Source: Clostridiaceae bacterium
GTDB lineage: Bacteria > Bacillota > Clostridia > Saccharofermentanales > DTU023
Direction: 5' to 3'
NCBI GenBank assembly: GCA_012841145.1
Contig: DUVH01000033.1
Span: 1-39,146 of the forward strand
Length of the DNA stretch: 39,146 bases
Every line of letters starts with the position of its first letter. Position 1 is the stretch's first letter. The translations under genes were made by a program, and so were the position numbers. This document shows, one piece after another, positions 4,216-7,810 of this stretch. The notes under the pieces are model-generated. The model saw nothing but the letters and a program-made list of their open reading frames with translations, made no database searches and was not told where the DNA came from.

Positions 4216-5463
4216 CTAGTCTTCCAAATCGTGGATGAACAGTCCTGAACGGAGCTTCGGCTCAAACCACGTCGACTTGGGCGGCATGATCATCTCGGCG
4301 TCGGCAACAGTCAGAAGCTCTTCCATGGTCGTCGGGAACATCGCGAACGCGACAGCCCAGTCATCATCATCGACGCGACGTTTCAATTCGCCCAGACCGC
4401 GGATACCGCCGACGAAATCGATCCTCTCACACGTACGAGGGTCATCGACACCGAGGATGGGTGATAGAACATTGTTCTGCAGAATCGAGACGTCGAGGCG
4501 GTTGACAGGGTCAAGCCCTTCGAAGATCGATTCGGGAGCCGTCAATGCATACCACTCGCCGCCTAAATACATGCAAATCTCGCCCTTGCGTTTCGGGTGG
4601 AAAGCGTCCTCCACCTTCTCGATACTGTAGATCTCGCCGAGGCGCCCTAGGAACTCGTCCTGCGACAAGCCGTTCAGATCTTTAACCAGACGATTGTAGT
4701 CCATGATGTAGAGATCTTCATCGGGGAAGATAACGGCCATCGAGAAATTTTGCTCCGCGTCAGCAGGTACGTCAGGGTTTTCCTCGCGGCGCTTCAGCGA
4801 GACATTCGCCGCCGAAGCCGTGCGGTGATGCCCGTCTGCGATGTAGAGCAAATCAACGTCCTTGAACAGATTTTCCAGCGCGACGATCGTCTCGGCGTCA
4901 TCGATCACCCACAGCTGATGCAGGATGTCATCTTCCGTCCTGAAATCGTATGTCGCATCGTTGTATTCAATGAAATCGTCGATCAGCCGCGAGATGTCAT
5001 CGCGCTGACGATACGTCAAAAAGACTGGCTCCGTGTGCGCATTGCAGACGTCAAAGTGGCGTGTCCTGTCGACTTCTTTATCTTTTCTCGTAAACTCATG
5101 GCGGCGGATCCTGTTCGCGACGTATTCATCGACTGAGTAAGTCGCGACGAGCCCTGTCTGCGGGCGGCCGTCCATCACTTGGCGATAAACATAGAAGTAA
5201 GGGCGTTCGTCCTTATTCAGAACACCGTCCGCGATCATCTTGCGGAAATTGGCGCAACCGTGTTCATAGACGGCGTCATCGTAATCACCGACCGTTTCAG
5301 GCAGCTCCAGCTCGGAACGAACAACACGCAGAAAACTGTAAGGATTGCCTTCCGCCATCGCCTTCGCCTCTTGACGATTCATAACGTCATACGGAAGGCA
5401 TGCGACCTTATCAGCAAGGGCGGGATCGGGTCGTATAGCTCTAAAAGGTCTAACAATTGCCAT
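4216..5463 (-). CDS. DUF1015 family protein of the serine operon
   Basis: This 415-residue cytosolic protein belongs to the DUF1015 family. It opens with PFRAIRPDP...LPYDV and carries the family hallmark YIADGHHRTASA with DGHHR at residues 210-214. No signal peptide or membrane segment is seen. The ATG overlaps the serA stop by one base (TAATG) and has its own AAAGGAG site, so translation is coupled to serA. The biochemical role is not established to my knowledge. The DGHHR box resembles the ParB/Srx-fold free serine kinases (SerK type), and no phosphoserine phosphatase is encoded nearby, so a job on serine or phosphoserine is a reasonable inference but no more. The terminator at 4081-4122 could close this operon. 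Confidence 0.9.
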   Translation of the reverse strand: MAIVRPFRAIRPDPALADKVACLPYDVMNRQEAKAMAEGNPYSFLRVVRSELELPETVGDYDDAVYEHGCANFRKMIADGVLNKDERPYFYVYRQVMDGRPQTGLVATYSVDEYVANRIRRHEFTRKDKEVDRTRHFDVCNAHTEPVFLTYRQRDDISRLIDDFIEYNDATYDFRTEDDILHQLWVIDDAETIVALENLFKDVDLLYIADGHHRTASAANVSLKRREENPDVPADAEQNFSMAVIFPDEDLYIMDYNRLVKDLNGLSQDEFLGRLGEIYSIEKVEDAFHPKRKGEICMYLGGEWYALTAPESIFEGLDPVNRLDVSILQNNVLSPILGVDDPRTCERIDFVGGIRGLGELKRRVDDDDWAVAFAMFPTTMEELLTVADAEMIMPPKSTWFEPKLRSGLFIHDLED

Positions 5464-6368
5464 TACAGTCTCTCCTTTATGATTTCGACGATGTTATCGC
5501 CAATTCGCGCCTGCGCCTCCGCCGTCGCCGCGCCGATGTGCGGCGTCATGGAGATCTTGTCGCAATTCCTGATGCGCTCATTTTCGAGCGGCTCTACTTC
5601 AAAAACATCGATGGCGGCGCCACGCACCTTGCCGGCCTCGATCGCATCGACTAACGCGTCTTCATCGACGACTCCGCCTCGCGCCAAGTTGATGATGAAC
5701 ACGCCGTCTTTCATGATGTCAAACTCTTCTTTCCCGATGAACGGTTTTCCGCCTGAAAACGGGACATGAAGAGAGATGTAATCCGATTCGCGCAACACGT
5801 CTTCGAAACTCTTCTGCTCGCAGTCATCACAGTCTTCGCATGCGAGCTGACGTCGCGTGTGGAAGATCACGTTCATGCCGAGCGCTTTGCACTTTTCGGC
5901 AAGCGACCGTGCGATTCGCCCGAAACCGATTAGTCCGAGTGTCTTGCCCGCGATCTCTGTGCCTGAATACTGTTTTTTCAACCATTTGCCTTCGCGCATG
6001 GTGACGTTGGCCGCACCGATGTTACGCGCGCAACAGAGCATGTGGCCGAGAGCAAGCTCCGCCACGGCGCTGCTCGAAGCGGCAGGTGTATTGCGGACTT
6101 CGATACCTTTTTCCTTGGCATAATCGACGTTGATGTTGTCGACACCGACACCGCCGCGGATGATCAGCTTGAGATTGCCCGCCGCTCCGGCATCGATCTC
6201 GGGATTACGGAGTTTTGTCGCGCTGCGGACGATGACGGCGTCAACTTCCGCAAGTCTCGCCAGAAGCGCGTCGCCTTCATATTTTGCCGTATCAACGACG
6301 TGGCCGAGTTCTACTAAGGCCTTCTCCGCCGATTTATCGATACCGTCATTTGCAAGAATTAACGCCAT
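5463..6368 (-). CDS. serA: D-3-phosphoglycerate dehydrogenase, short form
   Basis: The enzyme oxidises 3-phosphoglycerate to 3-phosphohydroxypyruvate with NAD, the first step of serine synthesis. The D-2-hydroxyacid dehydrogenase fold is clear: IIRGGVGVDNIN near residue 70, the Rossmann loop LIGFGRIA at 146-153, and the catalytic set Arg230 (NLARGG), Glu259 (DVFEVEP) and His277 (TPHIG). At 301 residues it lacks the C-terminal ACT domain, so serine feedback through that domain is not expected. It starts two bases after the upstream aminotransferase, with a GGAGG site inside the end of that gene, and overlaps the DUF1015 gene downstream. Other D-2-hydroxyacid substrates cannot be excluded by sequence alone, but the operon supports SerA. 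Confidence 0.9.
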   Translation of the reverse strand: MALILANDGIDKSAEKALVELGHVVDTAKYEGDALLARLAEVDAVIVRSATKLRNPEIDAGAAGNLKLIIRGGVGVDNINVDYAKEKGIEVRNTPAASSSAVAELALGHMLCCARNIGAANVTMREGKWLKKQYSGTEIAGKTLGLIGFGRIARSLAEKCKALGMNVIFHTRRQLACEDCDDCEQKSFEDVLRESDYISLHVPFSGGKPFIGKEEFDIMKDGVFIINLARGGVVDEDALVDAIEAGKVRGAAIDVFEVEPLENERIRNCDKISMTPHIGAATAEAQARIGDNIVEIIKERL

Positions 6369-6370
6369 GA

Positions 6371-7444
6371 TTACGCCTCCAATCCGAGAATTTCATTCAT
6401 TGCAGCGATGACTTCATCGAGCGTCTCGTCTTGGAGCTCGCCCATCGTCGCAATGCGGAACGTCGAGTCTTTAAACGGACCATAGCCGCCGCCGAGCCTG
6501 TATCCGCGCTCGAGCATCGGCTTGCTCAGCTCACTGAAAACGAATCCGGGCGGCGTGCTGATGCAGGTCACCGTATTGGAGCGATAGCCTTCCGCCGCGA
6601 AGAGTCCGAAATTCTTCAGCGCCCAGGCGCGCACTTTGTCTGCCAGCCTCTTGTGGCGGGCGAAACGGTTGTCGAGCCCCTCCTCCAAGATGCGGTCGAG
6701 CTGGTAGTCGAGCGCGAACATGTGGGACAGCGACGGCGTGGACGGATATTGGAAATCTCTCGCGACACGCTTGTAGAGGCGCAGGATGTCGAGATAATAT
6801 CCTCTGTTTTCCACCTGCTCCGCCGCCTTGAGCGCGCGATCCGAGATGGAGCACAGGCTGAGTCCCGGCGGAAGCGCGAGACACTTCTGCGTCGATGTAA
6901 TACAGCAGTCGATTCCCCATGCGTCGACTTCAACTTTGTCGCCGCCGAGCGAGGAGACGGCGTCGACGAGATAGAGGACGTCGTCGTATTTGCGGATCAC
7001 GTCACCGATCTCTTTACACGGGTTGACAACGCCTGAGCTCGTCTCGTTGTGCGTGACAGTGACGACGTCGTATTTACCCGTCTTCAAAGCCTCATCAACC
7101 ATTTCAGGTGTCGTAGGCTGTCCGGGCTCCGACTTGAAAATGTCGGCGGGAACGTTGTTCGCTGTCGCAAGCTGGTGCCAACGATCTCCAAATGCGCCGA
7201 CAGAAAAAACAGCCGCTCTCTTACGCGTGCAGCTGCGAATGGAGCCTTCCATCAAACCTGTCCCCGAAGAGGTCGACAGGAGAATGGTATCTTCCGTATA
7301 CATTAATTTCTGCAGTTTTTCCGAAATACTTTTTTGCAGTTCCGTCGCTTCTTTTGTTCTGTGCCCGATCATGGGCGTCGCCATTTTTTCTAGCACACTG
7401 GGATCCACGTCAGTTGGACCCGGGATAAATAGTTTTTTGTACAT
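6371..7444 (-). CDS. class V aminotransferase, probable phosphoserine aminotransferase role
   Basis: This PLP enzyme of fold type I is the first gene of the serine operon. LFIPGPTDVD is at the N terminus, SSGTG near residues 59-63 binds the PLP phosphate, DAVSS at 161-165 supplies the cofactor Asp, and STQKCL at 184-189 holds the Schiff-base Lys187. The 357-residue sequence looks more like the alanine-glyoxylate / serine-pyruvate aminotransferase group than classical SerC. Being directly coupled to serA and DUF1015, it probably acts as the transaminase making phosphoserine. A serine-glyoxylate activity is the alternative. The ATG is preceded by AGGAGGT at good spacing. A promoter must lie in the AT-rich 7460-7570 stretch, but I see no consensus pair. 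Confidence 0.8.
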   Translation of the reverse strand: MYKKLFIPGPTDVDPSVLEKMATPMIGHRTKEATELQKSISEKLQKLMYTEDTILLSTSSGTGLMEGSIRSCTRKRAAVFSVGAFGDRWHQLATANNVPADIFKSEPGQPTTPEMVDEALKTGKYDVVTVTHNETSSGVVNPCKEIGDVIRKYDDVLYLVDAVSSLGGDKVEVDAWGIDCCITSTQKCLALPPGLSLCSISDRALKAAEQVENRGYYLDILRLYKRVARDFQYPSTPSLSHMFALDYQLDRILEEGLDNRFARHKRLADKVRAWALKNFGLFAAEGYRSNTVTCISTPPGFVFSELSKPMLERGYRLGGGYGPFKDSTFRIATMGELQDETLDEVIAAMNEILGLEA

Positions 7445-7810
7445 GGTACCTCCTGAAAGAAATTGATGGTGATTAGAACGATCAAATATGACCGTTTATT
7501 ATTCTATCATATTTCTTCAAAAATTACTTATTTTTTATGCATATTAATTATGCTGATTCACCAATACAAACTCTATGCAAAGAGCATTTCACACGAACTC
7601 GGAGCGCACAAGCAGAAATAGGCGCAATACGACCGGGATAGCTGGTGAACGAGCTAAGGCGCGTGCAAACGTTGGGGCGTCCGTCCACATGCCTGTAGGC
7701 GAGCGGAAAAGATCTTCAGACTTGACTTTCGCGCGCCTGAGCGTCAAAACGTATGCCTTGCGTGAACGGATCAACAGAGAAGTCACGCTTGACTTTCGCG
7801 CGCCTGTACA
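7445..7810. other. intergenic region with a partial direct repeat
   Basis: No convincing gene is seen here. Bases 7455-7570 are AT-rich and should hold the promoter of the serine operon on the minus strand. The rest has the GC content of the surrounding genes. It carries one full copy and most of a second copy of a 32-bp imperfect repeat (7721-7752 and 7788-7819), the second overlapping the sbcC stop codon. Confidence 0.5.

Follow-up and report, generated by a model that had tools for sequence, protein, structure and literature searches.

A DUF1015 protein with a predicted SerK-like fold in serC-serA operons: a tentative candidate for the last step of serine synthesis

Introduction

The closest described systems to the DUF1015 protein studied here are two free serine kinases. 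The protein is encoded by the third gene of a serC-serA operon in a 39,146-nucleotide stretch of DNA from a Clostridiaceae bacterium (GCA_012841145.1, contig DUVH01000033.1, positions 1 to 39,146; hereafter the window). The first kinase is SerK, the ADP-dependent enzyme of Thermococcus and Pyrococcus (TK0378; PDB 5X0B series and 1VK1), and the second is SbnI of staphyloferrin B synthesis (PDB 5UJD, 5UJE and 6NR6). SbnI serves siderophore synthesis, whereas DUF1015 sits with serC and serA. Makino et al. (2016) state that clear-cut homologues of SerK were not found in bacteria; they propose a conversion of serine to 3-phosphoglycerate via SerK, both in Thermococcus and in archaea whose serK clusters with serA and an aminotransferase gene, and they report that in Desulfurococcales serK lies close to genes for SerA and aminotransferases (PMC5120207).

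For many anaerobes the gene for the final step of serine synthesis is not known. One study lists 450 genomes of gut Firmicutes that encode SerA and SerC and none of the four known phosphoserine phosphatases (PMC9026213), and another reports that Dehalobacter restrictus grows without serine although five Dehalobacter genomes lack the phosphatase gene (PMC4751268). PF06245, the Pfam family of DUF1015, is still annotated as being of unknown function. A literature search covering mostly titles and the beginnings of abstracts returned no publication naming a function in the serine pathway, and a text search of a 2025 survey of ParB-fold proteins (PMC12704722) found no mention of PF06245. What is new here is the SerK fold, as predicted, in an enlarged bacterial form that is built into serine operons. 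A fold is now predicted for DUF1015, and a substrate pair is likely. In many anaerobic bacteria it may be the enzyme that is missing from the end of the serine pathway. Our first choice, to which we give slightly less than an even chance, is that DUF1015 is a branch of the SerK/SbnI fold acting on the pair of serine and O-phosphoserine and that in serC-serA operons it most likely converts phosphoserine to serine, replacing SerB.

Results and discussion

Predicted fold and kinship with free serine kinases

The AlphaFold2 model of the window protein (415 amino acids; positions 4216-5463, minus strand), computed from 37 sequences, reached a mean pLDDT of 94.5 and a pTM of 0.91. Comparison with the PDB by Foldseek gave ten matches at E <= 0.001. 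Nine of these are structures of SerK (1VK1, 5X0 series) or SbnI, each with a probability of 1.00 and E values from 1.9e-7 to 3.9e-5, while the tenth, with a probability of 0.14, is an elongation factor. In VIA-align, these nine SerK and SbnI structures scored Z 11.4-13.6 over 211-227 residues, and the predicted fold is that of SerK: the model resembles SerK over 227 of 241 residues (Z 13.4) and SbnI over 211-214 residues (Z 11.4-12.1). The first-pass annotation, made from the sequence by itself, had remarked that the DGHHR box of the protein recalls free serine kinases of the ParB/Srx fold, and with SerK and SbnI as the only confident matches the predicted structure bears this out.

Sulfiredoxin carries a GHHR-like motif, and a phosphate-binding box of this kind is common to DUF1015 and the ParB/sulfiredoxin superfamily. 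Because of this resemblance we also consider a ParB-like protein that binds DNA or acts as a nucleotide switch and lies beside serA by chance, all the more as proteins with a ParB fold are described as common outside par operons in the 2025 survey (PMC12704722). We regard this as very improbable: the ParB N-domain, next in VIA-align, reaches a Z score of only 3.4 against 11.4 and above for the kinases, the Pfam scan gives PF06245 as the only domain above cut-off and neither the ParB N-terminal domain (PF02195) nor a helix-turn-helix (HTH) domain, and the linkage with serC and serA recurs in other genomes.

Neither phmmer nor a profile search of PDB sequences with the 37-sequence alignment retrieved SerK from DUF1015, and tblastn of SerK against plasmids gave no matches. 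Since plain sequence searches miss SerK, the kinship rests on the predicted fold and on profile-profile comparison. When the 37-sequence alignment was compared with two SerK sequences, 157 columns were aligned with a probability of 74.7 and an E value of 2.6e-5 for this single comparison, and the alignment paired DGHHR and P-K-S/T-T with their SerK counterparts. An hhalign comparison of a 56-sequence profile with two SerK proteins yielded scores of 53 and 61, covering the C-terminal part of SerK with its P-K-T-T motif, while the best of 200 shuffles of one of them scored 22; the part around DGHHR scored 36.1 against 19.1 in 100 shuffles. With scores so far above those of shuffled sequences, the kinship reaches past the ParB/Srx core into the C-terminal part of SerK. 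We conclude that DUF1015 is, by its predicted fold, a bacterial SerK-fold family. It differs from SerK in length (415 versus 242 residues), in having an additional region at the N-terminus, in sequence (14-16% identity), in the spacing from the HE pair to DGHHR, which is about 48 residues longer, and in being bacterial and encoded in operons some of which carry T-boxes.

Conserved residues

Conservation was assessed in two alignments, one of 37 sequences including that of the window and one of 56 sequences made up of the window and 55 of the first 60 loci of its phylum (L048, L058, L071, L094 and L097 are absent). The DGHHR box, placed at residues 210-214 in the first-pass annotation and found there (4822-4836, minus strand), aligns with residues 69-73 of SerK and is invariant in all 37 sequences; in the larger set at least 55 of the 56 proteins retain each of its residues, D210 and R214 being retained in 55. 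Invariant across the 56 sequences are H122, E123, T125, G211-H213, R258, P394, K396, T398, F400, P402 and G407. The pair H122-E123 (5095-5100, minus strand) may correspond to H29-E30 of SerK, which is suggestive only: the best local alignment pairs the two, yet two of 100 shuffles score higher. We take E30 of SerK to be a catalytic residue. According to the titles of PDB entries it is the residue mutated in SerK structures. Near the C-terminus, PPKST (residues 394-398; 4270-4284, minus strand) aligns with SPKTT at 219-223 of SerK, and by eye the conserved N-terminal element PYDV (residues 24-27; 5383-5394, minus strand) can be compared with YDI at SerK 9-11. SerK has its landmarks PHE (28-30), DGHHR and SPKTT in the same order as the HE, DGHHR and P-K-T of DUF1015, and one pattern combining all landmarks matches 54 of the 56 and 35 of the 37 DUF1015 sequences.

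We infer the substrate of DUF1015, the direction of the reaction, the phosphate acceptor and the roles of residues. The phosphate would be held by the DGHHR loop, with E123 serving as acid/base; the C-terminal PKST loop would help to bind the substrate, and the phosphate would pass to an acceptor in the nucleotide pocket of ParB and SerK, or to water.

The operon and its recurrence

The operon of the window comprises three genes on the minus strand (4216-7444). The first (6371-7444) encodes a serC-like class-V aminotransferase (PF00266) and the second (5463-6368) a short SerA of 301 amino acids (PF02826/PF00389) in which no ACT domain was found. As the aminotransferase falls under every NCBIfam cut-off and the models listed for SerA likewise stay under theirs, the names serC and serA are given on the strength of family membership and context. 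The match of the third product to the full PF06245 profile amounts to 361 bits against a cut-off of 25.8 in the Pfam scan, and no NCBIfam model matches it. Its start overlaps the stop of serA by one base (...CTGTAATGGCA...), and an AAGGAG-like ribosome site for it lies inside serA. All this agrees with the first-pass annotation, which had described a DUF1015 gene overlapping serA by one base in a serine operon that lacks a phosphoserine phosphatase. No phosphatase gene is present in the operon, and the Pfam and NCBIfam scans gave no domain of the HAD family, to which the phosphoserine phosphatase SerB belongs, in the DUF1015 protein, for which we propose the same metabolic step. In the long DUF1015 frames of L141 and L093, checked for fusions, no second Pfam domain was found.

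Gene order, which had been called conserved, was followed in 38 genomes of the window's family and in loci from a sample of 249 genomes of its phylum. DUF1015 is present in 26 of the 38 family genomes, and in every one of these a SerA match adjoins it on the same contig and strand; one genus with seven genomes has a divergent SerA that is likewise adjacent. The twelve family genomes without DUF1015 have SerA-like matches of at most 36% identity, or none. In the phylum, 122 of the 249 genomes carry DUF1015. Of their loci 120 were fetched, with G166 left out at a contig edge, and the gene was recognised in 119 (L071 has no recognised DUF1015 reading frame); a serC-like or serA neighbour lies on the same strand in 36 of these 119. 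Divided at an arbitrary HMM score of 450 into a close group I and a divergent group II, the latter including the fragment L126, the loci are linked to serC-like or serA genes in 27 of 37 and 9 of 82 cases, respectively. The role of the divergent proteins may differ. Where a ser gene lies upstream of DUF1015, the gap is at most 104 bases in 46 of 51 loci. The SerA proteins encoded upstream have about 300, 390 or 530 residues (that of L019, with 393, has a sub-threshold ACT-like match of 19.1 bits), so that the pairing recurs with different forms of SerA. SerA at E <= 1e-44 is present in 109 of the 122 phylum genomes with DUF1015 and in 93 of the 127 without (Fisher p = 0.0012, uncorrected for relatedness), and in eight of the 13 apparent misses among the former a divergent SerA lies beside DUF1015.

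As a side observation, contigs C62 and C73 of the related genome G006 hold two serA-DUF1015 pairs, one with a SerA 97% identical to that of the window; this is possibly due to contamination from a near relative.

T-box control in relatives

T-boxes switch genes on when their tRNA is uncharged. In a study on Paenibacillus, a serine T-box induces serA upon serine starvation (PMC8002221). We found T-box leaders upstream of nine serC-serA-DUF1015 clusters, corresponding to nine of 50 ser-linked DUF1015 loci with the window included. They belong to L013 (Tissierella creatinophila) and to four families (L051, L115 and L117; L092, L124 and L127; L060; L103). The specifier is GAA-UCC (Ser) in both copies of L013 and in L060, and, with the alignment anchored at the 3' side and positions assigned by us, UCC in L051, L092, L115, L117, L124 and L127. 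The T-box of L103 (8403-8671) has the specifier GAA-GGC, which is a glycine and not a serine codon. The T-boxes of L103, L051 and L092 score 80-85 bits, under the Rfam cut-off of 93, with E values from 1e-17 to 1.3e-16, and those of L115, L117, L124 and L127 were called by a stem-I model made here together with the core motif. This model, for which seven of these T-boxes and the kind seen in L067 were used, served to scan 70 sources; the nine do not include the T-box of L067, which lies ahead of serC-serA but not of DUF1015. Co-transcription is less sure for L051, because 200 bases separate serA and DUF1015 there. A gene that is induced under serine shortage should help to make serine, and the T-boxes point to a place of these operons in serine synthesis.

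Two stem-I-like matches were noted besides: one at 181-289 of the window (minus strand; 23.3 bits, E 0.025), whose controlled gene would be outside the window, and the same kind at 10243-10351 of L002, with a T-box core motif nearby.

Control of DUF1015 by glycine riboswitches was considered and rejected. COG4198 is presumably the same family as DUF1015. A 2007 paper places single-aptamer glycine riboswitches ahead of five COG4198 genes. At the gathering threshold only L015 and L039 among 67 distinct loci have such a riboswitch, about 3 kb upstream of DUF1015 in both; the gene next to that of L015 encodes an Na:alanine symporter, and L039 was judged likewise by position and size only.

The phosphoserine step in genomes without SerB

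A check of the genome for serB had been called for. With SerB defined as a TIGR00338 match above the curated cut-off, none was found in the window's own genome, which is 91% complete and whose sole match is a P-type-ATPase-like piece. SerB is likewise absent by this measure from all 38 family and all 249 phylum genomes, while seven of the 14 control genomes have it. Matches under the cut-off occur in 37 of the 38 family genomes, many of them within frames of more than 600 residues. Taken alone, the absence of SerB is weak evidence, as it holds for all 249 phylum genomes regardless of DUF1015, and SerB is present in two of the three controls that carry DUF1015; the third, Thermotoga maritima, has none above the cut-off. 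A displacement of SerB by DUF1015 was not supported by co-occurrence in the phylum: SerB-like proteins (E <= 1e-18) are present in seven of the 249 genomes, three of 122 with and four of 127 without DUF1015.

Other phosphatases were sought as well. In the own genome, four PF12710 matches, the HAD family used for this search, represent two HAD-IA proteins resembling PpaX/phosphoglycolate phosphatase, one overlap with a P-type ATPase and one weak match with stops, and PF00300 finds one CobC-like histidine phosphatase. It is conceivable that such a generalist phosphatase performs the phosphoserine step and that DUF1015, itself without catalytic activity, senses phosphoserine, serine or a nucleotide and adjusts SerA and SerC. 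Known or proposed alternative phosphoserine phosphatases belong to the HAD and histidine phosphatase superfamilies (PMC9026213), and some ParB-fold proteins are nucleotide switches (PMC12704722). The conservation of HE, DGHHR and P-K-T in nearly all aligned DUF1015 proteins fits an enzyme instead, and the histidine phosphatase, for which the comparison was made, is not tied to the operon, with matches in 13 of 26 family genomes with DUF1015 and in seven of 12 without. We therefore consider a sensor unlikely.

Twenty serA loci were hand-picked from the 93 DUF1015-less genomes with SerA, and 37 of their 68 same-strand neighbours were scanned (30) or recognised by aligning them with a seryl-tRNA synthetase (7). 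Neighbours resembling serS occur at eight of the 20 loci. The operon at 3060-6563 of L178 consists of serC, serA and then a gene for a histidine phosphatase, which takes the slot of DUF1015 and may be an alternative phosphoserine phosphatase of a known type. The PHP superfamily includes phosphatases. Genes for PHP-domain proteins, which could be phosphatases, lie directly upstream of serC-serA in L177 (7124-7927) and L181 (2403-3209).

Direction of the reaction

The suggestion of the first-pass annotation that DUF1015 acts on serine or phosphoserine is supported by the predicted fold, gene order, co-occurrence with SerA and T-boxes in relatives. We come to the same reading because of gene order, residue conservation, the predicted fold, the lack of a recognisable SerB and the T-boxes of related operons. 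It is a somewhat more tentative step, though one we still take seriously, to see in DUF1015 the enzyme that is missing between phosphoserine and serine in many Firmicutes, with the kinase reaction reversed or turned into a hydrolase that replaces SerB.

Several points weigh against the formation of serine from phosphoserine by DUF1015. Its fold relatives of known function, SerK and SbnI, are kinases, and the structural match to them is distant (rmsd 4.2-5.9 Å, identity 13-16%, target TM-score 0.48-0.64). Moving the phosphate of phosphoserine onto ADP or AMP costs about 20 kJ/mol, and the SerA reaction also runs uphill; a biosynthetic role therefore requires hydrolysis, another acceptor or a strong pull. 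The leader of the window operon itself showed no T-box in our scans, and a shift by one base turns the specifier of L051, L092, L115, L117, L124 and L127 into UUC (Phe). In group II, 73 of the 82 genes are not beside serA or serC. A SerB above the cut-off is present in two of the controls that carry DUF1015, Bacteroides ihuae and Methanosarcina acetivorans. The SerB gap extends to phylum genomes without DUF1015, 93 of 127 of which have SerA, so something else must perform the phosphoserine step there; the gap is evident, and its filling by DUF1015 does not follow from it. Candidates exist: frames of 211-216 residues in G019 and G020, which have DUF1015, and in G001 and G004, which do not, match positions 14-186 of TIGR00338 with 25-32 bits, and these weakly scoring, full-length SerB-like HAD proteins could be phosphatases, just as the two HAD-IA proteins and the histidine phosphatase of the own genome could act on phosphoserine.

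Energetics is the main weakness of the phosphoserine-to-serine direction and the strength of its chief competitor, which we hold to be possible and rather doubtful. Here DUF1015 would be a true serine kinase and, together with SerC and SerA running in reverse, would convert serine to 3-phosphoglycerate for assimilation, as proposed for the SerK of Thermococcus; the serC-serA-DUF1015 operons would then define a bacterial route of this kind. Such a route is downhill. Both characterised fold relatives phosphorylate serine, the SerA of the window lacks a recognised ACT domain, GlyA is present in the own genome and SerB is missing from the whole family sample; in the two controls that have SerB, DUF1015 need not supply the phosphatase step. 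The nine T-boxes with their serine or glycine codons mean expression upon shortage, which is the opposite of what a serine-consuming pathway needs. We prefer the conversion of phosphoserine to serine to the kinase direction because we weigh regulation above energetics.

A further feature of the locus

A 19-base sequence, CAGGCGCGCGAAAGTCAAG, spotted by eye, is present twice upstream of serC, at 7721-7739 and 7788-7806 on the minus strand.

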